DNA of 64,000 bases from Prescottella equi (GTDB lineage: Bacteria; Actinomycetota; Actinomycetes; Mycobacteriales; Mycobacteriaceae): positions 1 to 64,000 of the forward strand of contig NZ_LWTX01000012.1 in NCBI RefSeq assembly GCF_002094305.1, in the 5' to 3' direction. Position numbers and translations under genes: made by a program. The notes beneath the pieces are model-generated. The model ran no database searches. It was not told where the DNA came from and saw nothing but the letters and a program-made list of their open reading frames with translations. Positions 16,644 through 51,107 of this stretch are shown here, one piece after another; the first letter of the stretch is position 1, and every line of letters begins with the position of its first letter.

Positions 16644-17675
16644 TCAGGCGCTCTGGCCCTCGCGCTCGGCGACGAGGTTCAGCGCGATGTCGACGATCAT
16701 GTCCTCCTGGCCACCGACCAGCTTGCGCTTGCCGGCCTCGAGCAGCAGGGTGCGAACGTCGATGCCGTAGCGAGCCGACGCGGCCTCCGCGTGGCGCAGG
16801 AAGCTCGAGTACACACCCGCGTAGCCGAGGGTGAGGGTCTCGCGGTCGACGCGGACCGGGCGGTCCTGCAGCGGGCGGACGATGTCGTCGGCCGCGTCCT
16901 GCAGCTTGAAGACGTCGCAGCCGTGCTTCCACTCGTGCAGGTCGGCGACGGCGATGAAGGGCTCGATGGGGCAGTTGCCGGCACCGGCACCGTGACCGGC
17001 GAGCGATGCATCGACGCGGTAGACGCCTTCCTCGACGGCGACGACGCTGTTCGCCACCGACAGCGAGAGGTTCTCGTGGGCGTGGATGCCGATCTCGGTA
17101 CCCTCGTTCAGCACGTCCTTGTACGCGCGGACGCGGTCCCGGACGCCGTTCATCGTCAGGCGTCCGCCCGAGTCGGTGACGTACACGCAGTGTGCGCCGT
17201 AGGACTCCATCAGCTTGGCCTGCTTGGCCAGCTCCTCGGCGGGAGCCATGTGGCTCATCATCAGGAAGCCGGAGACGTCCATGCCGATCTCGCGGGCCGT
17301 TTCGATATGCTGCGCGGAGACGTCGGCCTCGGTGCAGTGCGTCGCGATGCGGACCGAGCGCACACCCAGCTTGTAGGCGTGCTTGAGCTCCTCGATGGTG
17401 CCGACACCCGGCAGCAGCAGGGTGGTCAGGCGGGCGTGCTCGAGTACCTCCGCCGCAGCCTCGATCCACTCCCAGTCGGTGTTGGAGCCCGGACCGTAGT
17501 TGACGGAGCCGCCGGCCAGACCGTCACCGTGCGCGACCTCGATCGCGTCGACGCCGGCCTCGTCGAGAGCCTTGACGATCCGCTTGACGTCCTCCGGCGA
17601 GATGCGGTGGCGCACTGCGTGCATGCCGTCGCGCAGCGTGACGTCCTGGACGAAGATGGTGGGGTTGGTGCTCAT
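16644..17675 (-). CDS. dmpG: 4-Hydroxy-2-oxovalerate aldolase
   Basis: Cleaves 4-hydroxy-2-oxovalerate to pyruvate and acetaldehyde; acetaldehyde is channelled to the partner dehydrogenase. 343 residues; [13 protein letters not shown] at the N-terminus, [33 protein letters not shown] and the C-terminal [16 protein letters not shown] and GGQEDMIVD are all family motifs; Mn2+ ligands are the Asp of TLRDG and the His pair of HAHEN. It is closer to DmpG/BphI than to the steroid-pathway HsaF as I recall them. Its start overlaps the acetaldehyde dehydrogenase stop by 4 nt. Last gene of the operon. Confidence 0.94.
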
Positions 17676-18616
17676 CGGGTGGCTTCCTTCTTCTGGGCGA
17701 TGCGCTCAGCGATCTGCAGGCCGGCAGAGGTCATGATGTCGAGGTTGCCTGCGTAGGCGGGCAGGTAGTGTCCTGCGCCCTCGACCTCGAGGAAAATCGA
17801 CACCTGGTGGGTCGGGCGGTTGCCGCCGTCGATGAGGGTCTCGACCGGCTGGTCCGCGGGGATCTCGGCGATCTGGACCTGCTGCTTGAGGCGGTAGCCC
17901 GGAACGTAGGCGGCGACGTCGCCGACCATCTTCGCGACCGACTCGCGGATCTGGTCGTGGGTGGCCGGGTCCGCAGCGTCGACCAGGCAGAAGACCGTGT
18001 CGCGCATGATCAGCGGCGGCTCGGCCGGGTTCAGGATGATGATCGCCTTGCCGCGCTTGGCGCCACCGACGGACACGATCGCGCTCGACGTGGTCTCGGT
18101 GAACTCGTCGATGTTGGCGCGGGTGCCGGGGCCGGCGGACTTCGACGCGATCGAGGCGACGATCTCGGCGTAGGCGACCGGGACGACCCGGGAGACGGCC
18201 GCGACCATCGGGATCGTGGCCTGGCCACCGCAGGTCACCATGTTCACGTTCGGAGCGTCGATGTGCTCGTCGCCGTTGACGGCCGGCACCACGAAGGGGC
18301 CGATCGCGGCGGGGGTGAGGTCGATCATGCGCTTGCCGAGCGGACGCAGACGCGCGTCGTTCACGACGTGGGCCTTGGCCGACGTCGCGTCGAAGACGAT
18401 GTCGATCTCGTCGAAGTTGGGGAGGCCGACGAGGCCCTCGACACCCTCGGCGGTGATCGGCACGCCCATGGACGCGGCGCGCGCGAGACCGTCCGACGCC
18501 GGGTCGATACCGACCATCGCGCCCATCTCGAGGTGATCGGAGTGGTTGAGCACCTTGATCATCAGATCGGTGCCGATGTTGCCGGATCCGATGATCGCGA
18601 CCTTGACCTTGCTCAT
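17672..18616 (-). CDS. dmpF: Acetaldehyde dehydrogenase (acetylating)
   Basis: Converts acetaldehyde, CoA and NAD+ to acetyl-CoA in complex with the aldolase. 314 residues with an N-terminal Rossmann motif [13 protein letters not shown], the catalytic Cys in [10 protein letters not shown], and a C-terminal interface region. Both gene junctions are 4-nt overlaps (upstream with the hydratase, downstream with the aldolase), the usual arrangement for these channelling partners. Confidence 0.95.
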
Positions 18617-19437
18617 GCCTCGGTTCCTTCCTTGAAACGTGTGGTCACGACACCGAGTCCGGACACGGAGACGGTGACGACGTTGCCGGCCTGGACCGGC
18701 GCCATGGGGCCGAGGGCACCGGACAGGATGACCTGACCGGCGCGCAGCGGCTGACCCAGCTCACGGGCCGTGCGGGCGAGCCACACGACGGCCTCGATCG
18801 GGTCGCCCAGGCAGGCCTCGCCGTTGCCGGAGGAGACTTCCCGACCGTCGACGGCCATCGACATGACGACGTCCTTGGGCTCGAACTCGTCGAGCGTGCG
18901 GCGCTGCGTGCCGAGGACGTAGACGCCGGACGACGCGTTGTCGGCGACGGTGTCGCCGAAGCGGATGTCCCAGTTCTCGATTCGGCTGTCGCAGATCTCG
19001 AGTGCGGCGACCGCGTACTCGATCGCGTCGCGCACCTGCGCGGCATCGAGCGGGCCGTCGACCAGGTCGGCGCCGAGTACGAAGCCGACCTCGCCCTCGA
19101 TCTTCGGCTGGATCAGCACGCTCATCGGGACGTCGTCGCCGTCGGCGTACTGCATGTCGTCGAAGAGGACGCCGAGGTCGGGCTGGTTCACGCCGAGCTG
19201 CTGCTGGACGGCGACCGACGTCAGACCGATCTTGCGGCCGACGACGACGGCGCCCGCCTTCATCCGGAGGTCGTTGACGCGTTCCTGCACCTGGTACGCG
19301 GCAACGAGGTCGTCGGCGCCGATCAGGTCACGGATCGGCGCGCAGGGCACACCGGCCGCGGCGGCCGACGCGAGGCGCTCCGCGGCAGCGGCGATAGCGG
19401 ACTCGCTCACCGCGGTGGAGTTCGTGGACTGGGTCAT
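18613..19437 (-). CDS. 2-Oxopent-4-enoate (2-hydroxypenta-2,4-dienoate) hydratase
   Basis: Adds water to 2-hydroxypenta-2,4-dienoate to give 4-hydroxy-2-oxovalerate. 274 residues with [16 protein letters not shown], the metal-binding acidic segment [21 protein letters not shown] and the C-terminal [16 protein letters not shown]. The same fold includes 4-oxalocrotonate decarboxylase, but placement directly before the dehydrogenase and aldolase fits the hydratase (DmpE/MhpD/HsaE role). First gene of a three-gene operon; an IclR regulator is divergent 69 nt away. No ring-cleavage dioxygenase is next to it. Confidence 0.9.
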
Positions 19438-34565: not shown

Positions 34566-35450
34566 ATGAAGTCCGCTACTCACGACCGCAGCCGTCGTCA
34601 CGTCGTGCAGTCCGAGGACGGCGTATCGCTCGCCGTGCGCGAGTACGGGCCCGTGGATGCCCCGGTCACCGCGGTGTTCGTGCACGGCCACTGCCTGCAC
34701 ACCCACTCGTGGGCCCGACTGCGCTCGCGCCTGACGCGGGAGTGGGGTGCGGCGGTCCGGATGGTCTTCTACGACCATCGCGGTCACGGCGAATCGGGCA
34801 GCGCCCCCGCACACACGTACACGATCGACCAACTCGGACGCGACCTCGACGCGGTGATCCGGGAAGTCGTCCCGACGGGCCCCATCGTCCTGATCGGTCA
34901 TTCGATGGGTGGGATGACGGCTCTCGCCTACGCGCGCCAGAACCCGGGGGCCGTGGGCACCCGGGTCGTCGGGGTGGGTCTGCTGTCGACCGCAGCCGGT
35001 GACATCACCCGCTCGGGCCTGGGCCGGTTCCTGCGGCACCCGCTCGTCTCCGCGTTCCAGTTCGGGGTCGAGCGCCTGCCGCGACTGAGTCAGCGCCTGC
35101 TCAGTCTCGTCCTCGACAACCCCACGTCGGTGGTGACGATGTACGGCTTCCTGCGGTCGCTCGTCGGATTCGACGAGTCTCGATCCCTGGCGGGGCTGGC
35201 CGAGATTCCGTCACTGGTCCTCGGCGGGTCCTCCGACATGGTCACGCCGTTCGAGCACTCCGTCGCGATCGCCGCGAATCTCCCGTCCGCCGAGCTGGTT
35301 CGGCTCGGCGGCGCGGGACATTCGGTGATCCTCGACCAGGCGTACGAGGTCGCGCACGCGCTGGTGCGGCTCGTCGACCGCGCGGCGGCGCACCACGCGG
35401 CCCGTCAGCCCGCGGCGTACGCGCTCGCGGCGGCGTCCAGTGCGGCGTGA
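34566..35450 (+). CDS. Alpha/beta hydrolase
   Basis: 294 residues. VFVHGHCLHTHSWARL has the oxyanion HGH loop, GHSMGGMTALAYA the nucleophilic serine, SSDMVTPFEH the acid, and GGAGHSVILDQAYEV the catalytic His, so it is a functional serine hydrolase of the esterase/lipase group. A long C-terminal Ala-rich tail follows the His. ATG behind GGGAGGA. Its 3' end overlaps the convergent small gene at 35405 by 46 nt. The substrate is unknown; the next genes (acyl-CoA ligase and others) suggest ester substrates in a catabolic pathway. Confidence 0.88.
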   Translation: MKSATHDRSRRHVVQSEDGVSLAVREYGPVDAPVTAVFVHGHCLHTHSWARLRSRLTREWGAAVRMVFYDHRGHGESGSAPAHTYTIDQLGRDLDAVIREVVPTGPIVLIGHSMGGMTALAYARQNPGAVGTRVVGVGLLSTAAGDITRSGLGRFLRHPLVSAFQFGVERLPRLSQRLLSLVLDNPTSVVTMYGFLRSLVGFDESRSLAGLAEIPSLVLGGSSDMVTPFEHSVAIAANLPSAELVRLGGAGHSVILDQAYEVAHALVRLVDRAAAHHAARQPAAYALAAASSAA

Positions 35451-35851
35451 TCGGACACCGACGCGTCGGCGACCGCACGCGCGGCCTCCGCCTCGGCGCC
35501 GCGACCGATCTCGCCGGTGAACGTCGTGTGCCACCGGACGAGCCGGTCGGGGTCCCAGCCGAGCAGCGCCCGGTCCAGGAGCAGGCGTTCACCCACCCGG
35601 CGGGACGATCGGATCCGGTTCCTGGCGACGGCACCGACCCGCTCGAGGATGTCTCCCGGCAACAACGTCCTCGACGTGGTCCGGTAGTGCGCCCACGTGG
35701 CCTCGAGAACGTCGGATTCGGAACAGTCCCTGAGCAACTCGGACCAGTAGTACTCGGCCCGTTCGTCCGGGACCGGCGCCTGCTCGACGCCCGCGCGGAT
35801 CCGGAGCACCTCTCGGCACGTGAACACGTCGACGGTCTTGACCGGGTTCAC
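35405..35851 (-). CDS. Hypothetical protein with replication-loader-like helical repeat pattern
   Basis: A 148-residue protein. Residues ~25-75 (AEYYWSELLRDCSESDVLEATWAHYRTTSRTLLPGDILERV) resemble the pattern in phage/actinobacterial helicase-loader (G39P-like) proteins, in which an acidic dipeptide, AHYR and LLPGDI recur. GTG start overlaps the acyl-CoA ligase stop by 4 nt (GTGA), giving strong support for the start and coupling it to a metabolic gene, which is unexpected for a replication protein. C-terminal third is Ala-rich. The family link is a memory-based guess. Confidence 0.5.
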   Translation of the reverse strand: MNPVKTVDVFTCREVLRIRAGVEQAPVPDERAEYYWSELLRDCSESDVLEATWAHYRTTSRTLLPGDILERVGAVARNRIRSSRRVGERLLLDRALLGWDPDRLVRWHTTFTGEIGRGAEAEAARAVADASVSDHAALDAAASAYAAG

Positions 35852-37506
35852 TGCGCACTCGCACGAACGGTGGCCTCGACGACCGACTCGAGTGCCAGCG
35901 CCCGGATCTCCCCCTTGGCGAGCTTGCCGCCGGACGAGCGCGGCAACGCGTCGGCGACGACGAGGTGCTCAGGAAACAGCTCCTTCGACACTCCCCGGGC
36001 GCTCAGGTGCTCGACGAGGTCGGCAAGGGTCAGTGCCCGGCCGGGTCGCAGGCTCACGACCGCGCACACCCGCTCTCCGAACACCGGATCGGGGACGGCG
36101 ACGACACCGGCCAGGTCGACCGCGGGATGGGTCTCGACCTCCTGTTCCACCTGCGGCGCCGAGATGTTCTTGCCGCCGCGGATGATGATGTCGGACGTCC
36201 GCCCCACGGGCGTGAGGTAGTCGTCGGCGTCGACGGTCACCAGGTCGCCCATCAACATCCAGCCGTCCTTCGTGAACAGCTCGGCGTTGGCGTCGGCGTC
36301 GTCGTAGTAGCCCGCGCACGTCAACGGTCCGCGACCGGCGGGCCGGCCGGGACCGCCGGTGGCGGTCACATCGCGGCCGTCCTCGTCGAACAGGCGCACC
36401 TGCATCTCCGGGATCAGCCGTCCGGCGGTACCGATGCGGCGTTCGAAGGAATCCTCGACGCGGGTGACGCTGAACGCCCCGCTCTCGTTCGACCCGAAGA
36501 ACTGCAGCACGGACGCCCCGGTCCGGTCCTCGAACTCGGCAGCCCGATCCGCCGGCACCGCCTCGCCGCCGGTGAACATCACCCGCAGCGACGACAGGTC
36601 CGCCTGCACGGCGAGCGGCGAGTTCAACAGCATCCGGAACTGGGTGCTGACGCAGCACAGTACGGTCACCCGCTCCCGCTCGATCATCCGGATCATGGTC
36701 TCCACGTCGAACTTCGGCAGCACCACCGTGGGGACGCCCGACATCGCCGGGGCGTAGTGCGACGTCCACAGCCCGAACCCGAACGGGGCCGGAACCGCAC
36801 CGAAGAACACGTCGTCGCCGTCCAGGTGTCCGGCCTCGATCGCCAGACGGCTGAACGCCATCCACCGATTGTCGAACTGCGTCACACACTTCGGCAGACC
36901 CGTGGTCCCCGATGTGGAGTTGAGCAGGTTCAGGTCGTCGGGACCGAGGCTGCGGCCGTCCACGTCGGCCGGTGCGGCCCGGCCCGGCACGATCGGCACC
37001 GCGGTGGGACCGGAGACGTCGAAGACGTCGTGCACACCCCGGTCCGACAGCACGACGTGGAAGGCCAGTGGCAGCCCGAGGTCGCGCAGCTCGCGCACCA
37101 GCACCGACGACGAGCGGCCCGCGAGGGCGTCGAGGGTGACGAGCGCCCGGGCACCGGTCTTGCGGACGAGATGCGCGATCTCGCGGTCGCCGGCGCGGGC
37201 GCCGATCCCGACCGCCACCACGCCGGCGCGTGCCGTCGCGACCAATGCCGCGTGCACGAGAAACGTGTCCGGCAACTGCACCGCGACCCGATCCCCGACC
37301 GGGATGCCCAATGCCACGAGTGTGGCCGCGAGGTCGTCGGCGACGGAATCGTAAGTCGCCCAGCTGGTCCGGGCAGAAGGCGTGATGTAGGCATCCGCGT
37401 CCGGCGTCCGCGCCGCCTGTTCGCGCACCAACCGGTGCAGCGGGTCGGTCCCCCACCATCCGGACTCCACGTACCGGCCGACCGTCTCGGGGTCGATGAG
37501 GCTCAT
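35848..37506 (-). CDS. AMP-forming acyl-CoA synthetase
   Basis: 552 residues of the ANL superfamily. Phosphate loop STSGTTGLPK, substrate-pocket region FFGSNESGAFS, the AMP motif YYDDADANAELFTKDGWMLMGD, hinge GRTSDIIIRGGKNISAPQVE and the C-terminal catalytic lysine in PRSSGGKLAKGEIR. It activates an unidentified carboxylic acid to its CoA thioester. ATG 37506 is supported by AAGGAG; upstream in-frame ATG lies within the GntR promoter region. It is divergent from a GntR regulator and followed by the coupled small gene. Related ligases act on cyclohexane carboxylate or aryl acids. Confidence 0.92.
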   Translation of the reverse strand: MSLIDPETVGRYVESGWWGTDPLHRLVREQAARTPDADAYITPSARTSWATYDSVADDLAATLVALGIPVGDRVAVQLPDTFLVHAALVATARAGVVAVGIGARAGDREIAHLVRKTGARALVTLDALAGRSSSVLVRELRDLGLPLAFHVVLSDRGVHDVFDVSGPTAVPIVPGRAAPADVDGRSLGPDDLNLLNSTSGTTGLPKCVTQFDNRWMAFSRLAIEAGHLDGDDVFFGAVPAPFGFGLWTSHYAPAMSGVPTVVLPKFDVETMIRMIERERVTVLCCVSTQFRMLLNSPLAVQADLSSLRVMFTGGEAVPADRAAEFEDRTGASVLQFFGSNESGAFSVTRVEDSFERRIGTAGRLIPEMQVRLFDEDGRDVTATGGPGRPAGRGPLTCAGYYDDADANAELFTKDGWMLMGDLVTVDADDYLTPVGRTSDIIIRGGKNISAPQVEQEVETHPAVDLAGVVAVPDPVFGERVCAVVSLRPGRALTLADLVEHLSARGVSKELFPEHLVVADALPRSSGGKLAKGEIRALALESVVEATVRASAQ

Positions 37507-37575
37507 CTCGATCTCCTTGTCCGGGGACGACGACGTCCCTGCGGGTGCTGACTTCGCTAACATTCAGAACTCAGG

Positions 37576-37600
37576 CGACGGTTCCGGGGAGGAACCGTCG
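37576..37600. promoter_or_regulatory. Inverted repeat in GntR leader
   Basis: CGACGGTTCC and GGAACCGTCG form a perfect 10-bp inverted repeat with a 5-nt spacer GGGGA. It lies 23 nt before the GntR start in the divergent region with the acyl-CoA ligase; either a GntR operator or an RNA hairpin in the leader. Confidence 0.5.
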
Positions 37601-37622
37601 GCAACCGGAAGGAAGTGACGCG

Positions 37623-38441
37623 GTGCCCCAGCAGGGACCGGACAGCAAGCCCCGCGCAGTCGATCCGAGCAACCTCCGCTGGCGCAGGCTGGCCGAGATG
37701 GTCGCCGACCAGATCCGCGAGCGCATCCTGCGCGGCGATCTCGCCGAGGGCGACGTCCTGCCCAAGGAGGCCGAGCTGCGCGAGCAGTACCCGGTCAACG
37801 TCCAATCGCTGCGTGAGGCGCTGCGGATCCTCGAGGCGGAGGGGCTGGTGAGGGTCCGCCGCGGCAACCGGGGCGGGGCCGTGGTCCACCGCCCCACCCC
37901 CGGCAACGTCGCCTACAGCCTCTCGATGGTCCTCGCGATGTCCGGCACCGATATCGACGACGTCGGCCGCGCCCTGCACGAGATCGAACCCATGTGCGCC
38001 GCGCTGTGCGCCGAACGCGAGGATCGCGCCACCGAGGTGGTGCCGATCCTGCGCGCCCTGCACGAGGAGTCGCTCGCCAACGTCGACGATCTCGTCGCCG
38101 CCACGACGCTGTCTCGACGGTTCCACGAGGCCGTCGTACAGCTCTGCGGCAATCGGTCGCTGATCGTGCTTGCCGGCGCCCTCGAGTCGCTGTGGTCGAG
38201 CCACGTCACCGACTGGGCCAACCTGCGGGCCGATCCCGAGACCATTCCCCGGACCGAGCGAGCACAGGCCCTCGCCGTCCACGGCCAGATCCTGCAGTGC
38301 ATCGAGGACGGCGACGCCGCGTCGGCGCGGGTGATCGCCGCCCGCCACCTGCGCGACGTCGGGTCCTACCCGCACGACCCGGACCGCCCACTGGTACCGC
38401 TCGATCCGGCCGTGGCCCGCGACCGCCTCTTCTTCGGCTGA
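37623..38441 (+). CDS. GntR-family (FadR/FCD type) regulator
   Basis: 272 residues: winged HTH at about 20-90 (IRERILRGDLAEGDVLPKEAELREQY, SLREALRILEAEGLV) and an FCD ligand domain at ~115-260 (HEIEPMCAALCA, RRFHEAVVQLCGN). GTG start behind AAGGAAG; Asp and His ligands of the FCD metal site are in place, so it probably senses a carboxylate or acyl-CoA. Divergent from the acyl-CoA ligase and 10 nt short of the convergent amidohydrolase; it likely regulates one or both. Confidence 0.87.
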   Translation: MPQQGPDSKPRAVDPSNLRWRRLAEMVADQIRERILRGDLAEGDVLPKEAELREQYPVNVQSLREALRILEAEGLVRVRRGNRGGAVVHRPTPGNVAYSLSMVLAMSGTDIDDVGRALHEIEPMCAALCAEREDRATEVVPILRALHEESLANVDDLVAATTLSRRFHEAVVQLCGNRSLIVLAGALESLWSSHVTDWANLRADPETIPRTERAQALAVHGQILQCIEDGDAASARVIAARHLRDVGSYPHDPDRPLVPLDPAVARDRLFFG

Positions 38442-38451
38442 CGGGATCCGG

Positions 38452-39702
38452 TCAGAAGCTGTTCGGATCGTCGATCACGCTCTGCGGCACCGGATGTCGG
38501 TACAGCTTGGAGGCGTTCTCCCAGGTGACCTTGCGCAGCTCGTCGGCGGAGAGACCCTTCATGGACTCGTTGACGACGTCCATCGTGCGCGGCCACAGGC
38601 TGTCACTGTGCGGGTAGTCCTCCTCGAGGAGGATGTGGTCGACGCCGATGCGGTCGCGGAGCACCATCGTCGACGGATCCTCGACGGCGCAGAACCAGAA
38701 GTTCCGCTTGAGTACGTCGGCCGGCGAGATGTCGATGCCGTCCCACGTGCCGTACATCGACGAGTAGGTCGTCATGTGGTCGAGTCGGTCGAGAAGCGCC
38801 GGAACCCAACCGATCCCACCCTCGGACATCACGATCTTGATGTTCGGGAAGCGGACCGGGATCTTCGAGAACAGCCAGTCGACGGTCGCGAACATCGCGT
38901 AGCCGAAGAACAACGTGCCGGCGACGTCCGGCGGCGCGTCCTCGGACGTGCTCGGTGACGTGCTCGACGAGCCGATGTGCAGGTTGATGACGGTCTCGGT
39001 CTCCTCACACGCCCGCATGATCGGATCCCAGTGGCCCGAGTGCACCGACGGCAGGCCCAGCGCGTGCGGGCCCTCGGAGAACGTCACGGCCTTGAAACCG
39101 CGTTCGGCGTTGCGGTAGATCTCCTGCGCGCCGATCTCCGGGTCGAGGAAGTACGGGATCTGGCACGGGATGATGCGGTCCGGGTACGGCCCCGCCCACT
39201 CCTCGAGGTGCCAGTCGTTGTAGGCCCGGGTGGCCGCGAGCGCGAGTTCCCGATCACTCGTGCTCAACTGCAGGCGCTGGCCGGCGAACCCCGGAAGGAA
39301 CGACGGAAAATTTAGGGACGCATACACCCCCGAGAGGTTCATGTCCTTGACGCGGTGATGGATGTCCCACGATCCGCGGCGCATGTCCTCGAACCGCTGC
39401 GGGTCGAATCCCCACTCGTCGACCGGACGTCCGACGACGGCGTTGAAGCCGACGTTCGGGATCTCCTTGCCGTCGTACACCCAGATGTCTGCACCGTCGC
39501 GGTGGATGACCTTGGGTGCCCGGTCGGCGAACTTGGCCGGCAGGCGACCCTCGAAGGTGTCCTTCGGTTCGACGATGTGGTCGTCGACCGAGATGAACGG
39601 GAAGGGTCGATGCGCCTTGTCGGGCTCGGGCAGGAACGTGACCTTGCCCTTGACGTTGGTGGTGAAATCGGTGTTCTGCATCAGGTCGTCGAGACTGGCC
39701 AT
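38452..39702 (-). CDS. Metal-dependent amidohydrolase / decarboxylase (ACMSD-like)
   Basis: 416 residues of the amidohydrolase-2 family. FISVDDHIVEP gives the Asp-x-His metal motif near residue 42, a His occurs in INLHIGSSS, and LLEEDYPHSDSLWP carries the Asp ligand near the C-terminus. Members are hydrolases or decarboxylases of aromatic acids such as 2-amino-3-carboxymuconate semialdehyde or gamma-resorcylate. ATG 39702 has GAGGAG 8 nt upstream. Next upstream (85 nt) is a class II aldolase on the same strand, so an operon is likely. The reaction cannot be fixed from sequence. Confidence 0.85.
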   Translation of the reverse strand: MASLDDLMQNTDFTTNVKGKVTFLPEPDKAHRPFPFISVDDHIVEPKDTFEGRLPAKFADRAPKVIHRDGADIWVYDGKEIPNVGFNAVVGRPVDEWGFDPQRFEDMRRGSWDIHHRVKDMNLSGVYASLNFPSFLPGFAGQRLQLSTSDRELALAATRAYNDWHLEEWAGPYPDRIIPCQIPYFLDPEIGAQEIYRNAERGFKAVTFSEGPHALGLPSVHSGHWDPIMRACEETETVINLHIGSSSTSPSTSEDAPPDVAGTLFFGYAMFATVDWLFSKIPVRFPNIKIVMSEGGIGWVPALLDRLDHMTTYSSMYGTWDGIDISPADVLKRNFWFCAVEDPSTMVLRDRIGVDHILLEEDYPHSDSLWPRTMDVVNESMKGLSADELRKVTWENASKLYRHPVPQSVIDDPNSF

Positions 39703-39787
39703 CGTGCACACTCCTCGAATGCTTGGGGGTCGATGAATTCGGCTGCGCTACATACGCAACCGCTGATGAGTCGGGATCTTGGGTCCG

Positions 39788-40582
39788 TCAGTCGAGAACG
39801 TCGGGGTGGGTGCGGATCAGCTTGCGGACCGCACCGGCCCAGTAGACGCCCGCGGCGCGCTCGACGAGCGCCTTCTGCATCGCGACACGGATGCGCTTCT
39901 CGATCGGCAGCGGATCCTTGCCGAGCAGCAGGATGTCGTAGGCGAGACGGCAGAAGCGGTCGATCGACGCCGCGCGGTACACCGCGAGCTCGATCGTGTC
40001 CGCGGTCGTGATGATGCCGTGGCTGGCGAGGATCACATTGTTGCGGTCGCCGATCTTGTCGGCGAGGTCGCGGCCCAGCGCCGCGTCGTCGACCTCGCCG
40101 GTGTACTCGCTGACCAGCGACAAGTCGTCGTCGTACAGACTGCCCGTCTGGTGCGCGATCATCGGCAGCACGCCGACGGCGGCCAGCAGCGTCACGTAGT
40201 ACGGATGGTTGTGGATGACTACGCGGGCATCCGGCCGGCGACGGTGCAGCTCGGTGTGGATGTGGTACGCGGGCGTGACGTCCCACTTCCCTTCGACCAC
40301 AGCACCGTTCGCATCGACACGGCAGACGTCCGAGGCGGAGACCTCCTCCCACCACAGTCCCCACGGGTTGATGAGGAGGCTGTCGTCGTCGCGGTCCGCC
40401 CACGTGATGTGGCCGGCCATGTTCTCGCTGAAGCCGTCGTGCGCCAGGATGCGGAAGGCGCATGCGAGCTTCTGTTCGTCGGTGAGTTCCACCCCGATCG
40501 GCGGCGTGGCGCTCGGCTGCCAGCCGTCCATCGAGTTCTTCTCCTGCCCTGCAGAATTCGTCGACTCGCCGAGTGCGGTCAC
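39788..40582 (-). CDS. Class II aldolase/adducin family protein
   Basis: 264 residues. Zinc ligands are in VIHNHPYYVTLL (His-x-His) and ASHGIITTADT (His); GHITWADRDDDSLLINPWG is the family N-terminal signature. Such proteins are aldolases, epimerases or decarboxylases on small hydroxy acids or sugars. GTG 40582 sits close behind AAGGAGG; an ATG at about 40531 with AGGAGA upstream is an alternative, giving a protein 17 residues shorter. A 7-4-7 palindrome lies in the promoter. Probable operon with the amidohydrolase. Confidence 0.85.
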   Translation of the reverse strand: MTALGESTNSAGQEKNSMDGWQPSATPPIGVELTDEQKLACAFRILAHDGFSENMAGHITWADRDDDSLLINPWGLWWEEVSASDVCRVDANGAVVEGKWDVTPAYHIHTELHRRRPDARVVIHNHPYYVTLLAAVGVLPMIAHQTGSLYDDDLSLVSEYTGEVDDAALGRDLADKIGDRNNVILASHGIITTADTIELAVYRAASIDRFCRLAYDILLLGKDPLPIEKRIRVAMQKALVERAAGVYWAGAVRKLIRTHPDVLD

Positions 40583-40630
40583 GGCACCTCCTTGCATCGA
40601 GAGTAAGTCGCTTCGGGAACTACCGAGACT

Positions 40631-40771: not shown

Positions 40772-41359
40772 CTAGTCGGAGCCGAAGCCTGAGGCGGGTC
40801 GGGTGAACACCTCGCGTAGCAGGGGGACGAAGGTGTCGATCGGCAGCGTGTCGTAGTCGGGGTCGAACGACACCTGATCCCATTCGGCACAGAAGTGCGC
40901 GCACGTGTCGAAGTACGGGCTGTCCCGGTAGCGTTCACGCGTGTTCGGGTCCAGCCCCAGCCGATCCCAGTAGTGATAGCCCTGGAACACGCCGTGGTGC
41001 TTGACGACCCAGGTGGCCTCCGCATCGAGGTAGGGCGCCACGATGGCGGCGGCGAGCTCGGAGTGATTCGCCGGCGCGATGGCGTCGCCGATGTCGTGCA
41101 TCAGGGCCGCGACCACGAGATCCGTTCGCGCACCCTCTCGTAGCGCACGGGTCGCGGTCTGCAACGAATGCTCGTAGCGATCCACCTGATAGCCGAGCGT
41201 GGGACCACGCAACGCCTCGAGCATCTCGATCATCGTGTCCGGCAAGCGATCATTCAGGAAGACCTTCGACTCGGCGACGATGAGAGCGATGTCCTCCGGT
41301 GTCGATTCGTCCATCCGCGTGAAGCTCACCTGCCGGCCACCCGACGCGTCGATCGCCAT
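40772..41359 (-). CDS. HD-domain protein A, PhnZ-like predicted di-iron oxygenase
   Basis: 195 residues. Conserved pattern His64 (YEHSLQ), His88-Asp89 (LMHDIGD), His99 (NHSE), His121/122 (VVKHHGVFQ) and Asp161 (AEWDQ) follows the order of the iron ligands of PhnZ (His34, His58, Asp59, His80, His104, Asp161), a mixed-valent di-iron oxygenase that cleaves a C-P bond. A family stretch RYRDSPYFDTCAHFCA is not one I know from PhnZ itself. About 60 percent identical to HD protein B. ATG behind GGAAGGAAG. It is 133 nt from the TetR gene. Substrate unknown; plain HD phosphohydrolase activity is the alternative. Confidence 0.72.
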   Translation of the reverse strand: MAIDASGGRQVSFTRMDESTPEDIALIVAESKVFLNDRLPDTMIEMLEALRGPTLGYQVDRYEHSLQTATRALREGARTDLVVAALMHDIGDAIAPANHSELAAAIVAPYLDAEATWVVKHHGVFQGYHYWDRLGLDPNTRERYRDSPYFDTCAHFCAEWDQVSFDPDYDTLPIDTFVPLLREVFTRPASGFGSD

Positions 41360-41492
41360 GACGTGACTTCCTTCCGCTCGTCGCGGTCATCGACCGCTGA
41401 TTCTCGTATCTTTACATAGAAAGGGCGAGTACGCGTACGAGATTCCCACTGGACGAAATCTCTCGCCGTCGGCCTACATCCAGTTCCACCGT

Positions 41493-42230
41493 TCAGGCCG
41501 ATGACAGGCGCAGTTCCTCGACCACACCGCGCAGGGCCTGCACTTCACGCCGCAGCTGCCCGATTTCGTCACCCGCCCCGCGCTCCCGGAACGGATCGGC
41601 GCGCACCGCCGCCGCTGCCGGAGCCGGCGACCCGGGCGCCCGGGCCGTGATGCCGTCCACGAACAGGTCCACCAGGGTCGTCGACAGCATGACGTGGTCG
41701 GCGTCGAGCGAGTCCCGGTGCCATCGCGTCGCGGTCCACACGATCTCCCGGAGCAGGCGCTGCAGCTGCGCCGACTCGAAATCCCGCCGAAAGCTGTTCT
41801 CGGCGATCCCGTTCGCGAGGATCCGCGACCACACGTCCTGAGCCTCGAGCACGCGTGCATCGATGTGCCGATAGCCCGGCAGCGTCGGCAGAACGCCGAA
41901 TTCCTTGTCGTAGATCTCCGACGCATGCGGATGGCGCACAGCAACCCGCAGCGAGACGTGGATCAGATCGCGCAGCTGTTCGGGGGCGGCCACCGACCAA
42001 CGGATCTCGCTCGCATAACTGCAGGTCAAGTCGTCGAGGAAGGCGATCAGGATCTCCGAGACCAACTCGTCCTTGGACCCGAAGTAGTGGTACAGACTGC
42101 CCGAGTGCAGCCCCACCTCGTCGGCGATGTCGCGCACCGTGGTCGCGGCGACACCGCGCGACGAGAACATCCGGGCGGCACACTCCACGATCTCCGGGCG
42201 CCTACTGGGGGTCGCGCGCGGGCGGCTCAT
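41493..42230 (-). CDS. TetR-family regulator
   Basis: 245 residues: HTH at about 15-60 (FSSRGVAATTVRDIADEVGLHSGSLYHYFGSK) with the TetR Tyr-His-Tyr-Phe feature, then a ligand domain of about 150 residues and a charged tail ending ALRGVVEELRLSSA that may be a coiled coil. ATG 42230 overlaps the stop of HD protein B by 4 nt (ATGA), so it is translationally coupled. It sits between the two HD-domain genes, and the divergent MFS transporter shares its promoter region. Confidence 0.88.
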   Translation of the reverse strand: MSRPRATPSRRPEIVECAARMFSSRGVAATTVRDIADEVGLHSGSLYHYFGSKDELVSEILIAFLDDLTCSYASEIRWSVAAPEQLRDLIHVSLRVAVRHPHASEIYDKEFGVLPTLPGYRHIDARVLEAQDVWSRILANGIAENSFRRDFESAQLQRLLREIVWTATRWHRDSLDADHVMLSTTLVDLFVDGITARAPGSPAPAAAAVRADPFRERGAGDEIGQLRREVQALRGVVEELRLSSA

Positions 42231-42823
42231 CGCGCCTGCCCGGCCAGGTCCTGGTCGCCCCACACCTTGGGCGGCCGGGAGAAGACCTCCTCGAGCATCG
42301 GCATGAAGAATTCGAGCGGCTCCGAATCGTATTCGGGATCGAAGGACTCCTGGTCCCACGCGGCGCAGAAGTGGGCGCAGGTGTCGAAGTACGGCGAATC
42401 CCGGTACCGGTCGCGGCTGTTCGCGGGTACGCCCAGCTTCTCGCCGTAGTGATAGGTCTGGAACACCCCGTGGTGCCGGACGACCCACACCGCCTCGTCG
42501 TCGAGGACCGGGCGCAGGATGGCCGCGGCGACCTCGCTGTGGTTGTCCGGGCACAGGTCGTCGCCGATGTCGTGGAGCAGTGCCGCGACGACCAGGTCCA
42601 CCCGCGCGCCCTCCCGATGGGCCCGCGTCGCCGACTGCAGGGAGTGCTCGTATCGGTCGACGCGATAGCCGAACGTATAGCCCTTCATCGACTCCAACAG
42701 CCGCACAACGGTTCCGAGCCAGTGATCGCGTCGATGCACGGCGGCCTCGTCCCGAATCAGCTCCATCTCGGCGACGGTGGCGTCGTCCATCCTGGTGAAT
42801 CCGACAGTTCGCGGCTGGTGCAC
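42227..42823 (-). CDS. HD-domain protein B, PhnZ-like predicted di-iron oxygenase
   Basis: 198 residues, paralogue of HD protein A with the same ligand set: His60 (YEHSLQ), His84-Asp85 (LLHDIGD), His95 (NHSE), His117/118 (VVRHHGVFQ) and Asp157 (AAWDQ). The stretch RYRDSPYFDTCAHFCA is identical between the two, and a basic N-terminal GFTRMDD is also shared. GTG start. It opens the operon that continues with TetR, 242 nt from the divergent MFS transporter. Having two copies in one regulated unit suggests different substrates or a heterodimer. Confidence 0.72.
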   Translation of the reverse strand: MHQPRTVGFTRMDDATVAEMELIRDEAAVHRRDHWLGTVVRLLESMKGYTFGYRVDRYEHSLQSATRAHREGARVDLVVAALLHDIGDDLCPDNHSEVAAAILRPVLDDEAVWVVRHHGVFQTYHYGEKLGVPANSRDRYRDSPYFDTCAHFCAAWDQESFDPEYDSEPLEFFMPMLEEVFSRPPKVWGDQDLAGQAR

Positions 42824-42880
42824 GTCTCGTCTCCCGTCCTGACGCCATGTGGCCTGGGTAACACTACGCAGCGGAACATT

Positions 42881-42921
42881 ACCCGATCAATCAGTTGATG
42901 GAGTCCCAATCGGGTGATTGA
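42881..42921. promoter_or_regulatory. Interlocking inverted repeats in HD-B / MFS divergent promoter
   Basis: ATCAA-TCAG-TTGAT (42886-42899) is a 5-4-5 palindrome; ACCCGAT (42881-42887) pairs with ATCGGGT (42909-42915); TCAATCA (42887-42893) pairs with TGATTGA (42915-42921). This concentration in a 242-nt divergent intergenic region is consistent with the TetR operator for both directions. Confidence 0.5.
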
Positions 42922-43065
42922 CAATCGGCGCGTCCTGCCTCAACATGACTTCGCAATTCCGGATCGCTTCGAACGGAATCCGCTGTGGCCGAACAGTGCC
43001 CGCCATCTCCACCGTTTCGAGACCAAGCTCCCCACCCTCACGGGCAGTCTCCGAAGGAGAACGTC

Positions 43066-44415
43066 ATGACCTCTTCCACCTCGACACCGCGTACGGGCAC
43101 CACCGTTCGAGGCAGAGCCCGGATGATCCTCGCGGTCAACATGGGCAACGCGCTCGAATGGTTCGACTGGACCGTCTTCGCGATCTTCGCGGTCTACTTC
43201 TCGAACCAGTTCTTCCACTCCGACAACGAGGTGTCGAACCTCCTGTCCACGATGGCGGTCTTCGCCGTCGGCTTCGTGATGCGACCGCTGGGCGGTCTGT
43301 TCTTCGGTCTCGTCGCCGACCGCCGCGGCCGCAAGTTCGTCATGGTGCTGACGATGTCGCTCGTCGCAGCGTCCAGCGTCCTCATCGCCGTCGCCCCCAC
43401 GTACGGCCAGGTCGGCGCCTTCGCGTCGCTGTGGCTCCTGGTGGTGCGCTGCATCCAGGGCCTCGCACACGGCGGCGAACAGGGCGGTTCCTACACCTAC
43501 ATCGCCGAGGTGGCCCGCCCGGACAACCGCGCCCTGTGGGGTAGCACCGTCATCATGTCGACGGTGGGCGGCACCGTGCTCGCCACCCTCCTCGGTGCCG
43601 TCATGCGCACCGGCGTCGACGCGTCCACCATGTCCGACTGGGGCTGGCGCATCCCGTTCCTGATCGGCGGGCTCCTCGGGTTCTTCGCGCTCTACCTGCG
43701 CCGCGGCCTCGCCGAGTCCGAGACGTTCGAGGACGCGGCCGAAGCCGCCCCCGTGCCCGAGTCCCCGGTCAAGACGGCGCTGCGCGACGTGTGGGCGCAG
43801 CGCGGATCGATCCTGCGGGTCGTCATCCTCGTCGGCGGCACCTCGGTGTTCTCGTACACCTGGTCGGTGAACGCGCCGGCGTACGCGATCAGCTTCCACG
43901 GCGTCGACGACCGCCTCGCGATGTGGTCCGGTGTGGTGGCGAACCTCGTGTTCATCGCCGCGCTGCCACTGGCAGCGATGCTCGCGGACCGGGTCGGACG
44001 TCGGGTCAACAACATGGTGTGGGGTATCGGCGTCGCGCTGCTGGCCTTCCCACTCTCCGGGCTGCTCGACGACTCCGCGATCAGCCTCGTGACGGCGATG
44101 TCGCTGGCACTGGTCCTGCAGTCGTTCGCGGCGAGCACGCAGGTCGCGTGGTTCGCCGAACTGTTCGCCACCAAGTCGCGCGCCACGGGCACCGGCATCG
44201 CGGTCTCGCTCGCGGCAGCGGTGTTCGGCGGCACCGCGCCCTACCTGAACACGTGGCTGACCTCGCGGGATTCGGCGGACCTCTTCACGTGGTACGTCGT
44301 GGCGCTGGCCCTGTGCGTGGCGGTCGCCGCCTACTTCACCCGGGAGACCAAGGGGACGGCGCTCACCTCCACCCACGTTCCGAACCCCGCGACGGCGGAG
44401 TCGACGGTCGCCTGA
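43066..44415 (+). CDS. MFS transporter, metabolite:H+ symporter (MHS) type
   Basis: 449 residues with about 12 hydrophobic helices. The N-terminal NALEWFDWTVFAIFAVYFS and the loop signature GLVADRRGRK at residues 81-90 are typical of MHS transporters (dicarboxylate, shikimate, proline/betaine types). ATG behind AAGGAG. Divergent from the HD-domain/TetR operon, so it probably imports the substrate of that pathway. Two strong hairpins follow the stop. The substrate cannot be read. Confidence 0.9.
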   Translation: MTSSTSTPRTGTTVRGRARMILAVNMGNALEWFDWTVFAIFAVYFSNQFFHSDNEVSNLLSTMAVFAVGFVMRPLGGLFFGLVADRRGRKFVMVLTMSLVAASSVLIAVAPTYGQVGAFASLWLLVVRCIQGLAHGGEQGGSYTYIAEVARPDNRALWGSTVIMSTVGGTVLATLLGAVMRTGVDASTMSDWGWRIPFLIGGLLGFFALYLRRGLAESETFEDAAEAAPVPESPVKTALRDVWAQRGSILRVVILVGGTSVFSYTWSVNAPAYAISFHGVDDRLAMWSGVVANLVFIAALPLAAMLADRVGRRVNNMVWGIGVALLAFPLSGLLDDSAISLVTAMSLALVLQSFAASTQVAWFAELFATKSRATGTGIAVSLAAAVFGGTAPYLNTWLTSRDSADLFTWYVVALALCVAVAAYFTRETKGTALTSTHVPNPATAESTVA

Positions 44416-47136: not shown

Positions 47137-47192
47137 CGCGCCCGGAGAGGGCGGGAATAGATCGGGTTCGAGGTTGTTGAGCTACGGTGAAC

Positions 47193-47210
47193 TAGTTGAA
47201 TCCTCAACTA
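47193..47210. promoter_or_regulatory. Operator-like palindrome upstream of pirin gene
   Basis: TAGTTGA-ATCC-TCAACTA is a perfect 7-4-7 inverted repeat 20 nt before the pirin start, overlapping the probable promoter. Spacing is typical for MarR, HxlR or TetR repressors. GTTGAG at 47176-47181 and CTCAAC at 47203-47208 form another pair. Confidence 0.55.
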
Positions 47211-47230
47211 ACCGCCCGGAGGAGAACCCC

Positions 47231-48196
47231 ATGCCCGCCGTGACCGTCGACAACATCCTCGCGCTGCCGCGCATCGAAGCCGTGGATCCGACCGCCGTGG
47301 ACCGCCCCGTCCGGGGCATCGTCACCGCGCCCGTCGGCTACGAGGGCGAGGGTTTCCCCGTCCGCCGCGCCTTCGCCGGCATCGACCTCGCACAGCTCGA
47401 CCCGTTCATCCACATGGATCAGATGGGTGAGGTGAACTACGCCCCCGGCGAACCGAAGGGCACCCCGTGGCATCCGCACCGCGGCTTCGAGACCGTCACC
47501 TACATGATCGACGGGATCATGGAGCACCAGGACTCCAACGGCGGCGGCGGCATCATCGGCGGCGGCGACACCCAGTGGATGACGGCCGGTGGCGGCATCC
47601 TCCACATCGAGGCTCCGCCCGAGCACCTCGTGATGAGCGGCGGCCTGTTCCACGGCGTCCAGCTGTGGGTCAACCTGCCCAAGAGCAACAAGATGGCGGC
47701 GCCCCGCTACCAGGACATCACCGGCAGCAAGGTCGCCCTCGCCTCGAGCGCCGACGGCGGGGCCCTGGTCCGCGTCATCGCCGGTGAGATCGCGGGACAC
47801 CAGGGTCCCGGATCCACGTACACCCCCATCGCGCTGTCGCACACGACCGTCGCACCGGGAGCCAGCGTGACGCTGCCGTGGAACCCCGACTTCAACGCGC
47901 TGGTCTACGTGCTGGCCGGGGACGGCTTCGTCGGCGCCGAGAAGCGACCGATCTCGTCGGGCCAGACCGCCGTGCTGGGTCGCGGTGACACCGTCACGAT
48001 CGCGGCCGCCGACGTCCAGGACTCGCGCACCGAGTCGCTCGAGGTGTTCGTCCTCGGTGGCCGGCCGATCCGCGAGCCCGTCGCGATGGCAGGGCCGTTC
48101 GTCATGAACACCAAGGCCGAGGTCATCCAGGCGTTCGAGGACTACCAGGCCGGCCGACTCGGGTCCGTCCCGGCAGCGCACGAAACCCTCAACTGA
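47231..48196 (+). CDS. Pirin-family bicupin protein (pirin 1)
   Basis: 321 residues. The N-terminal cupin carries the iron site HPHRGFETVTYM (His-x-His) and a later His/Glu in the segment ILHIEAPPEHLVMSGGLFHGVQLW, as in human pirin and quercetinase YhhW; a second cupin with weaker ligands follows. Function could be quercetin-like dioxygenase or transcription co-factor activity. ATG behind GGAGGAGA. The start is set by that site. It is the first of two pirin genes; the 205-nt gap to the second suggests separate transcription. Confidence 0.88.
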   Translation: MPAVTVDNILALPRIEAVDPTAVDRPVRGIVTAPVGYEGEGFPVRRAFAGIDLAQLDPFIHMDQMGEVNYAPGEPKGTPWHPHRGFETVTYMIDGIMEHQDSNGGGGIIGGGDTQWMTAGGGILHIEAPPEHLVMSGGLFHGVQLWVNLPKSNKMAAPRYQDITGSKVALASSADGGALVRVIAGEIAGHQGPGSTYTPIALSHTTVAPGASVTLPWNPDFNALVYVLAGDGFVGAEKRPISSGQTAVLGRGDTVTIAAADVQDSRTESLEVFVLGGRPIREPVAMAGPFVMNTKAEVIQAFEDYQAGRLGSVPAAHETLN

Positions 48197-48401
48197 ATGT
48201 CTTTGCCGGACAGTCGATCACATCGGTCGAACGACCGACCGATTGTGGTCGACTCCCGGCCCGACACTCGTCCGTGAACAGTCCGAGACCGAACCGACAC
48301 CACTGATTCGGCGCCGGCGGGTCCCACTTCGTACCCTGGTGACTCGACAGCGCGAACGCCGTGGAGCAACTCTGACCGCGTCTGTCAGCGAGGAGGACCG
48401 C

Positions 48402-49166
48402 ATGCCAGCTCTCACCACCCCCCACGTCGACGTCCACCGTTCGGGTGACCGTCTCAAGACCCGGATCCCGTGGCTGGACTCCAAGCACTCCTTCTCGTTC
48501 GGGCAGCACTACGACCCCGACAACACCCATCACGGACTGCTGCTCGTGAACAACGACGACATCGTCCAGCCGGGCCAGGGCTTCGACACCCACCCTCACA
48601 AGGACATGGAGATCGTCACCTGGGTGCTGCGGGGGTCGCTGGTGCATCAGGACTCGATCGGCCACTCGGGTGTCATCTATCCGGGTCTCGCGCAGCGGAT
48701 GAGCGCGGGCACCGGCATCCTGCACTCCGAGAAGAACGACTCGTGGCGGCTGAAGGGCGACGAGCACGAGGAGCCCGTCCACTTCGTCCAGATGTGGGTC
48801 GTGCCCGACGAGCCGGGCATCATGCCAGGCTACGAACAGCTCGAGATCGACGCCGAACTCCTCGCCGGTGGGCTGGTGCCGGTCGCGTCGGGCATGCCGC
48901 AGCACCGCGACAACGCGGCCATCCGGATCAAGAACAAGTACGCGTCGCTGCACGCGGCCCGGCTGCAGCCGGGTAAGGCGGTCCGCATCCCCGAAGCGCC
49001 GTTCGTGCACGTGTTCGTCGCGCAGGGCACCGCGGAGATGGAGGGCGTCGGAACGCTGTACGAGGGCGACGCCGTCCGGCTCAGTGCGTCCGGCGGGCAG
49101 CAGGTCACGAGCGAGACCGGGGCCGAGATCCTCGTCTGGGAGATGCACGCACGTCTCGGCGGGTGA
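48402..49166 (+). CDS. Pirin-family bicupin protein (pirin 2, YhhW/YhaK type)
   Basis: 254 residues. FDTHPHKDMEIVTWVLRG carries the His-x-His iron motif, and GHSGVIYPGLAQRMSAGTGILHSEKN the remaining ligands; the second half lacks an obvious metal site. This short subgroup matches YhhW-like pirins with quercetin 2,3-dioxygenase activity. ATG behind AGGAGGA. It is more distant from pirin 1 than a recent duplicate, so the two are different subfamilies placed side by side. The M. tuberculosis Rv0181c region holds a comparable gene near sigG. Confidence 0.88.
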   Translation: MPALTTPHVDVHRSGDRLKTRIPWLDSKHSFSFGQHYDPDNTHHGLLLVNNDDIVQPGQGFDTHPHKDMEIVTWVLRGSLVHQDSIGHSGVIYPGLAQRMSAGTGILHSEKNDSWRLKGDEHEEPVHFVQMWVVPDEPGIMPGYEQLEIDAELLAGGLVPVASGMPQHRDNAAIRIKNKYASLHAARLQPGKAVRIPEAPFVHVFVAQGTAEMEGVGTLYEGDAVRLSASGGQQVTSETGAEILVWEMHARLGG

Positions 49167-50238: not shown

Positions 50239-50249
50239 CGGACACCCGC

Positions 50250-51107
50250 ATGCACCGGGACGTGGAGCTGAGCCGGCTACGGATCAGCCGGCGCCGCGCG
50301 CTGACCCTGGGCGGCGCCCTGACACTCAGCGGCGTCCTGGCGGCGTGCGGCGGCCCGGGCACCGATCCCGCCCCGGCCGTCCCCATCACCGCGGTCCCCA
50401 GCGACATCGAACCGCGGCTGCTCGCGCTGCTCGACGACGCCCCGCGCTGCGTCATGGCGGTCGAGGAGACGCAGGGCCCGTACTGGTTCGACGTCGACTC
50501 GATCCGCCGCGACATCCGCGAGGACCGTCCCGGACTCGAACTGCACCTCGCACTGCGCGTGCAGGACGCACGCAACTGCGACCCCGACGGCGGCGCACCC
50601 GGAGTCGCGAACGCCGTCGTCGAGATCTGGCACTGCGACGCGGGCGGCGTCTACTCGGGCTACGAGGCCGCGTCCGTCGCGGCGAACGGCGGCACGCCGA
50701 CTGCCGGTGACGCGTCGTCGATCGTCACGATGTCCGACGGGTCGTACAGCCTCGACGACGGCCAGATCCCCACCACCGACGACGGCACGTACCTCCGGGG
50801 CGCGCAGGTCACCGACGGCAACGGCATCGCGCAGTTCACGACGATCTTCCCCGGCTGGTACACCGGCCGCACCGTGCACATCCACCTCAAGGTGCACATC
50901 GACCGCAGAACGGTCCTGACCACGCAGCTGTACCTCGACGACGCGCTGACCGACGACGTCTTCGCCGGCGTCGCGCCGTACACCGCTCACCCCGGACGCG
51001 ACACCCGCAACGACACGGACGTCATCTTCCACGACACCGGGCTGGTGAACACCGCCCGTGAACCCGACCGGATCCTGGCGGCGATCAATCTGGGCATCGA
51101 CATCTGA
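50250..51107 (+). CDS. Exported lipoprotein with intradiol ring-cleavage dioxygenase fold (copy 1)
   Basis: 285 residues. Twin-arginine-like SRRRALTLGG followed by the lipobox LSGVLAACGG at residues 23-32 marks it as an exported lipoprotein. The body resembles intradiol dioxygenases; Fe(III) ligand candidates are Tyr135 (GGVYSG), Tyr204 (GWYTGR) and His210/His212 (VHIHLK), as in protocatechuate 3,4-dioxygenase (Tyr108, Tyr147, His160, His162). A dioxygenase outside the cytoplasmic membrane is unusual. It starts 12 nt after the thioesterase stop. ATG start, weak ribosome site. Confidence 0.87.
   Translation: MHRDVELSRLRISRRRALTLGGALTLSGVLAACGGPGTDPAPAVPITAVPSDIEPRLLALLDDAPRCVMAVEETQGPYWFDVDSIRRDIREDRPGLELHLALRVQDARNCDPDGGAPGVANAVVEIWHCDAGGVYSGYEAASVAANGGTPTAGDASSIVTMSDGSYSLDDGQIPTTDDGTYLRGAQVTDGNGIAQFTTIFPGWYTGRTVHIHLKVHIDRRTVLTTQLYLDDALTDDVFAGVAPYTAHPGRDTRNDTDVIFHDTGLVNTAREPDRILAAINLGIDI

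Follow-up and report, generated by a model that had tools for sequence, protein, structure and literature searches.

Within a 64,000-nucleotide stretch of Prescottella equi DNA (contig NZ_LWTX01000012.1, positions 1 to 64,000; hereafter the window), two paralogous genes encoding small HD-domain proteins, A and B, flank a TetR-family regulator gene and lie among the genes of a putative catabolic cluster: an importer of the major facilitator superfamily (MFS), an AMP-dependent ligase, a class II aldolase-fold enzyme, a GntR regulator and a PF04909 'amidohydrolase' (Amh). Comparing A, B and their relatives with solved structures and curated models, we find that they very probably work like oxygenases of the PhnZ, TmpB and MIOX type, with a presumed diiron site and predicted use of O2. 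Because the phosphonate signature is missing and the genes sit in a catabolic cluster beside a likely hydroxylase, A and B probably break a bond other than C-P.

Both reading frames are open as the first-pass annotation of this DNA had drawn them. Reading the residues directly places the ligands of A at H64, H88-D89, H99, H122 (of H121-H122) and D161, and those of B at H60, H84-D85, H95, H118 (of H117-H118) and D157. All six ligands are present in both proteins, in the order H...HD...H...H...D, with 24 residues between the first histidine and the HD pair, and the 16-residue block RYRDSPYFDTCAHFCA is identical between them; the same order, spacing and block had been reported by the annotation, whose estimate of about 60 percent identity between A and B becomes 61% on computation. 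Pfam assigns both proteins to HD only. The AlphaFold2 model of B, built on a 55-sequence alignment, is all-helical, with a mean pLDDT of 93.9 and a pTM of 0.89.

A scan of genome contigs yielded at least 493 confirmed relatives of A and B. We analysed 80 of these as genome loci, which come from Rhodococcus, Nocardia, Nocardioides, many Acidimicrobiales, and Alpha- and Gammaproteobacteria; fifteen plasmids also carry family members, all below 60% identity, and 11 of the fifteen were analysed, giving 91 loci for the scan of neighbouring genes. The six ligands are conserved in 81 or 82 of 82 sequences, a pattern beyond chance, as are Tyr57 (81/82) and Gln126 (82/82; numbering of A). A-type and B-type sequences form two separate clades in the tree (supports 100/97 and 96/99), so that A and B are old paralogues, and A-type copies occur without B in two loci (L036 and L037); the root of the tree is unsure because the outgroup stands on a long branch. 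One locus, L034, in which the HD gene and the amidohydrolase gene each lie in two pieces, is outside the tree and inside the count of 82. The family is widespread and apparently unstudied, and no paper on it was found in a search limited to open-licence literature.

The kinship to PhnZ that the first-pass annotation had proposed is borne out by searches against the sequences of solved structures. Single-sequence searches of the PDB found PhnZ (E-values of 1.7e-5 with A and 2.9e-6 with B) and TmpB (0.011 and 0.0053, respectively), and a profile of 55 family sequences, searched against all PDB sequences, had PhnZ (7.1e-11) and TmpB (8.3e-8) as its sole matches below 0.1; in this search of solved structures, no HD hydrolase was found at E<=1, and MIOX was not among the matches. 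Aligned by hhalign with seven Phn-HD proteins (E 8e-17), the family profile matches all six ligands. The profile search for the PhnZ and TmpB families that the annotation had recommended does return matches to both models, but these are far below both cut-offs: A and B score 34.6 and 36.0 bits, as partial matches, with TIGR03276 (Phn-HD/PhnZ; curated cut-off 214.6) and 27.9 and 27.7 bits with NF049941 (TmpB; cut-off 300), and they are far below the HMP model of NCBIfam as well.

By sequence, A and B share with PhnZ the HD fold, the six aligned ligands and the EHSLQ motif. However, the lysine of the Phn-HD motif HVxAKRxL and the QGG motif, which have a role in phosphonate binding and are invariant in the seven Phn-HD proteins, are replaced in B by Gln122 and LGV, and the arginine of RRxD, common to the same seven, by Ala154. 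The YxxE substrate lid, which PMC8177086 describes for PhnZ and TmpB, has no counterpart before the first ligand histidine either, its tyrosine aligning with Thr and its glutamate with a Tyr conserved in 81 of 82 family sequences in the HMMER alignment with both proteins. By sequence, the A/B family falls within the broad HD oxygenase group and outside Phn-HD and TmpB. MIOX is described in PMC8177086 as an HD oxygenase of the mixed-valent kind that breaks C-C bonds. One family member is annotated as 'inositol oxygenase family protein', but neither this protein nor A or B has a MIOX Pfam match. A phosphonate pathway, tried as an explanation of the locus, was rejected on the model scores and the lost motifs.

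That no phosphonate gene is visible, as the first-pass annotation had put it, holds for the cluster genes scanned beside A and B but not for the genome, which carries a separate Phn-HD-like gene elsewhere (genome contig C7:184718-185212; loci L003 and L110) that scores 126 bits against the cut-off of 214.6 and has the motifs HVAAKRFL and QGG. By eye, the open frames next to that gene resemble an FAD oxidoreductase and a regulator of the GntR/PhnF type.

The cluster around B (Table 1) reaches down to position 35405, beyond the region of 40772 to 44415 to which the annotation had confined it and which leaves out most of the pathway. The ATGA overlap between the TetR gene and B is present, and the divergent transporter is of the metabolite/H+ symporter (MHS) type, as had been stated, though its score lies below the model cut-off; its gene probably starts at the ATG at 43066. 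Among solved structures, the AMP ligase best matches salicylate-AMP ligase (1.6e-72). The 148-residue protein had no Pfam match at E<=0.1 (three orthologues).

Table 1 Features of the B cluster, with positions in the window
Feature	Position	Strand	Remarks
148-residue protein	35405..35851	-	4-base overlap with the ligase gene; beside the ligase or B in several relatives
AMP-dependent acyl/aryl-CoA ligase	35848..37563	-	Nearest solved: salicylate- and 2,3-dihydroxybenzoate-AMP ligases
GntR/FCD regulator	37545..38441	+	Profile scans, gene maps
PF04909 'amidohydrolase' (Amh)	38452..39711	-	Ligand set of amidohydrolase-related dinuclear oxygenases
Class II aldolase/adducin-fold enzyme	39788..40597	-	Nearest solved: fuculose-1-P aldolase, NovR, TqaM
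HD protein A	40772..41359	-	195 aa, ATG start; paralogue of B
TetR-family regulator	41493..42230	-	ATGA overlap with B
HD protein B	42227..42823	-	198 aa, GTG start; putative dinuclear HD-domain oxygenase
Two tandem palindromes, CAATC-N4-GATTG type	42886..42922	.	One exact, one with a mismatch
MFS importer, MHS type	43066..44415	+	TIGR00883 331 bits, below cut-off 443

Gene maps of 14 B-clade loci define which of these genes belong together. B is accompanied by Amh in 13, by GntR in 13, by the class II aldolase in 12, by the MFS gene in 12 and by the AMP ligase in 11, whereas A adjoins it in 5 of the 14 and a close TetR gene is found in 3, so that the conserved unit is B with those five partners. 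The survey of A, B, TetR and MFS that the annotation had called for therefore upholds its linkage of B to an importer, which is reinforced by five loci, four from Nocardia and one from Rhodococcus, where the MFS, B and ligase genes share one orientation, but not its linkage of A and TetR to B. These maps led us to reject A, B and TetR as the unit, and they do not support the 'two-enzyme system' as the annotation had stated it. In Nocardioides carbamazepini (L033), the ligase, aldolase, B, GntR and PF04909 genes are kept, a peptide-type ATP-binding cassette (ABC) binding protein is encoded nearby, and no counterpart of the window's MFS gene was found at the locus. Of 14 genomes sampled from the genus, 7 carry B, A and a 96-100% identical PF04909 orthologue together, these three genes having the same distribution, and more distant PF04909 paralogues (50-52%) are found in 10 of the 14; since the seven genomes are related, these are not seven independent events.

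Further genes of note lie elsewhere in the window. Lower meta-cleavage genes occupy 16644-19437 (a DmpG-type aldolase gene, a middle gene read by eye as a dehydrogenase, and an FAA-hydrolase-family gene), two adjoining genes at 47174-49166 encode one pirin (Pfam) and one protein that is pirin-like by eye, and an intradiol-dioxygenase-family protein, whose N terminus resembles a twin-arginine (Tat) or lipoprotein signal by eye, is encoded at 50241-51107.

The inverted repeats reported between B and the MFS gene are real and resolve into the two tandem palindromes of Table 1, which five aligned relatives retain ahead of B and which are likely operators of the B/MFS promoter region. The exact CAATC-N4-GATTG motif occurs in 19 of 110 loci, some of them counted twice, and a scan of the region between B and the MFS gene for sigma-70 promoters and terminators found nothing. 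Because the motif is kept in two loci (L026 and L027) without a close TetR gene in the stretch examined, and also precedes a TetR gene in another (L037), GntR is as likely as TetR to act on it.

The best solved matches of the PF04909 protein are DitZ (1.6e-76) and PtmU3 (5.4e-32), and it also matches the four AROs 8SM6-8SM9 (PMC10811679). Its residues D43, H45, H245, E297, D365, H368 and D370 occupy every ligand position of AibH2 and PtmU3, as PMC7782822 gives them, including Glu313 of PtmU3. The protein is thus likely an amidohydrolase-related dinuclear oxygenase and a putative hydroxylase, which shares ligand positions with PtmU3, AibH2 and SfbO but differs from this group in that no Rieske partner was seen in the cluster and in that its closest solved relative is DitZ. 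PMC7782822 also identifies PtmU3 as a beta-hydroxylase able to take substrates ligated to CoA, in keeping with the AMP ligase in the cluster. Taken together, the ligand set, the kinship to PtmU3 with its function, and the ligase suggest that a hydroxylase supplies the HD enzymes with their substrate.

Pairing of a hydroxylase gene with an HD gene, known from PhnY with PhnZ and from TmpA with TmpB, also occurs elsewhere in the A/B family. We searched the 91 loci with hidden Markov models of six hydroxylase-type families, covering 519 kb within 3 kb of the HD gene and 760 kb at 3-8 kb; distances were measured from stop-to-stop frames and gaps are therefore understated. There were 45 matches within 3 kb against 14 at 3-8 kb, and 37 of the 91 loci have such a gene within 3 kb, whereas the control family, AMP ligase, is not enriched (7 near, 17 far). 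A P450 gene lies 0-66 bases from the HD gene in six Acidimicrobiales loci; PhyH, the fold of PhnY, is encoded directly downstream of it in L056 and L058; in L113 and L048, the HD gene is immediately preceded by a TauD gene of the TmpA/butyrobetaine-dioxygenase type (347.5 and 257.5 bits, respectively, with a cut-off of 400); and an FA-hydroxylase gene is near it in L047 and L111. Of the 17 loci with a class II aldolase gene, 15 have it no more than 3 kb from the HD gene, and four of the 15 are outside Rhodococcus and Nocardia (L056, L058, L114, L121). A luciferase-like monooxygenase gene, which has no equivalent in the window, is found close downstream of B in four Rhodococcus loci (L021, L023, L024, L034).

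As a plausible pathway, the MFS protein would import an organic acid, which the AMP ligase may activate and the PF04909 protein would hydroxylate; B, joined by A in some rhodococci, would then use O2 to cleave the product of that hydroxylation, and a hydroxy- or keto-acid fragment would be processed by the class II aldolase, with GntR and/or TetR presumably controlling the cluster via the tandem palindromes. Our preferred reading, in which confidence and doubt are evenly balanced, is that the A/B family comprises diiron mixed-valent HD enzymes cleaving the bond next to a hydroxylated, non-phosphonate carbon, after hydroxylation by the cluster. A wider version is more tentative, and we lean somewhat against it: a general 'hydroxylate, then cleave' module, in which one phosphonate-free HD-oxygenase family would act behind unrelated hydroxylases (P450, PhyH, TauD, FA-hydroxylase, amidohydrolase-related dinuclear oxygenase, perhaps flavin-dependent enzymes), often with a class II aldolase, and in which the amidohydrolase-fold and HD-fold dinuclear oxygenases of the window would work one after the other on a single acid or acyl-CoA.

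Several observations weigh against these readings. The YxxE lid of PhnZ and TmpB is lacking. Amh also matches decarboxylases, namely 5-carboxyvanillate decarboxylase (8e-8) and LigW2 (3e-7), and a scan confined to cluster proteins turned up neither a Rieske nor a ferredoxin gene; such a partner is not required for PtmU3. In 54 of the 91 loci, no hydroxylase-type gene lies within 3 kb; TauD considered by itself shows no enrichment, with 4 matches near the HD gene and 5 at 3-8 kb; and 29 of the 45 near matches are PF04909 or luciferase-like proteins, which are not hydroxylases by name alone and without which 16 near matches face 8 far ones. The six families were, moreover, chosen since they had already been seen near HD genes, and kin loci were counted separately. 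The six-ligand motif is also present in the hydrolase YqeK (PMC8177086), so that the motif alone decides nothing. On this last point rests the view that A and B are YqeK-like dinuclear HD phosphohydrolases, clearing a by-product that the ligase pathway leaves behind (a nucleotide, acyl-adenylate or CoA), which would also suit their Pfam assignment and the AMP-forming ligase in the cluster. We regard it as unlikely, given that the family profile found PhnZ and TmpB and no HD hydrolase, and that a phosphatase has no obvious use beside P450, PhyH, TauD and FA-hydroxylase in other lineages.

A further difficulty is that 16 of the 80 genome loci, mostly of Proteobacteria, have sarcosine/betaine one-carbon genes within 10 kb (sarcosine oxidase, GbdR-like, DMGDH-like, and MtgC-like or glycine-betaine corrinoid genes; SoxA, SoxB and SoxD are above their NCBIfam cut-offs, and SoxG, GbdR and MtgC below). 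In four proteobacterial metagenome-assembled genomes (L085, L050, L042, L070), the HD gene stands amid genes for an MtgC-like corrinoid protein, a methyltetrahydrofolate methyltransferase and a corrinoid activator. On the Pseudomonas aeruginosa plasmid pF045_1 (L113, 6863-12820), genes for a TmpA-like dioxygenase, the HD protein, a choline-binding protein, choline dehydrogenase and aldehyde dehydrogenase follow one another, and in L058 a BKACE enzyme is encoded beside the aldolase, HD and PhyH genes. Family members in such a context may have a betaine-type substrate, and all these neighbourhoods would suit a family acting on quaternary ammonium or betaine-type compounds, with cleavage to glycine betaine or the like, as in TmpB, and the actinobacterial cluster as one branch. 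As an account of the whole family we find this quite improbable, since no sarcosine or betaine gene is present among the window cluster genes scanned and both the ligase and the kin of the PF04909 protein point to aryl or acyl acids. There is only a slim chance that one of the two proteins is a non-catalytic, regulatory or structural partner of the other: A stands beside B in few B-clade loci, but both keep the six ligands, and A-type copies exist without B. Slimmer still is the prospect that A and B are oxygenases for an unusual phosphonate, which their nearest characterised kin, PhnZ and TmpB, might suggest, but which is at odds with the low scores on the Phn-HD, TmpB and HMP models, the replacement of the conserved lysine, QGG and arginine, the lack of phosphonate genes among the cluster genes scanned and the separate Phn-HD-like gene in the genome.

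Most HD genes are annotated as phosphohydrolases, and a review counts three characterised HD oxygenases, MIOX, PhnZ and TmpB. A family with the dimetal site but without the phosphonate signature would widen HD oxygenase chemistry, and the genes beside it point to specific enzyme pairs. If the preferred reading is true, many 'HD domain-containing proteins' of soil, marine and sponge-associated bacteria would be oxygenases of carbon catabolism; and if the general module is true, the A/B family would be a bacterial HD oxygenase family that cuts C-C (or C-N), not C-P, bonds.

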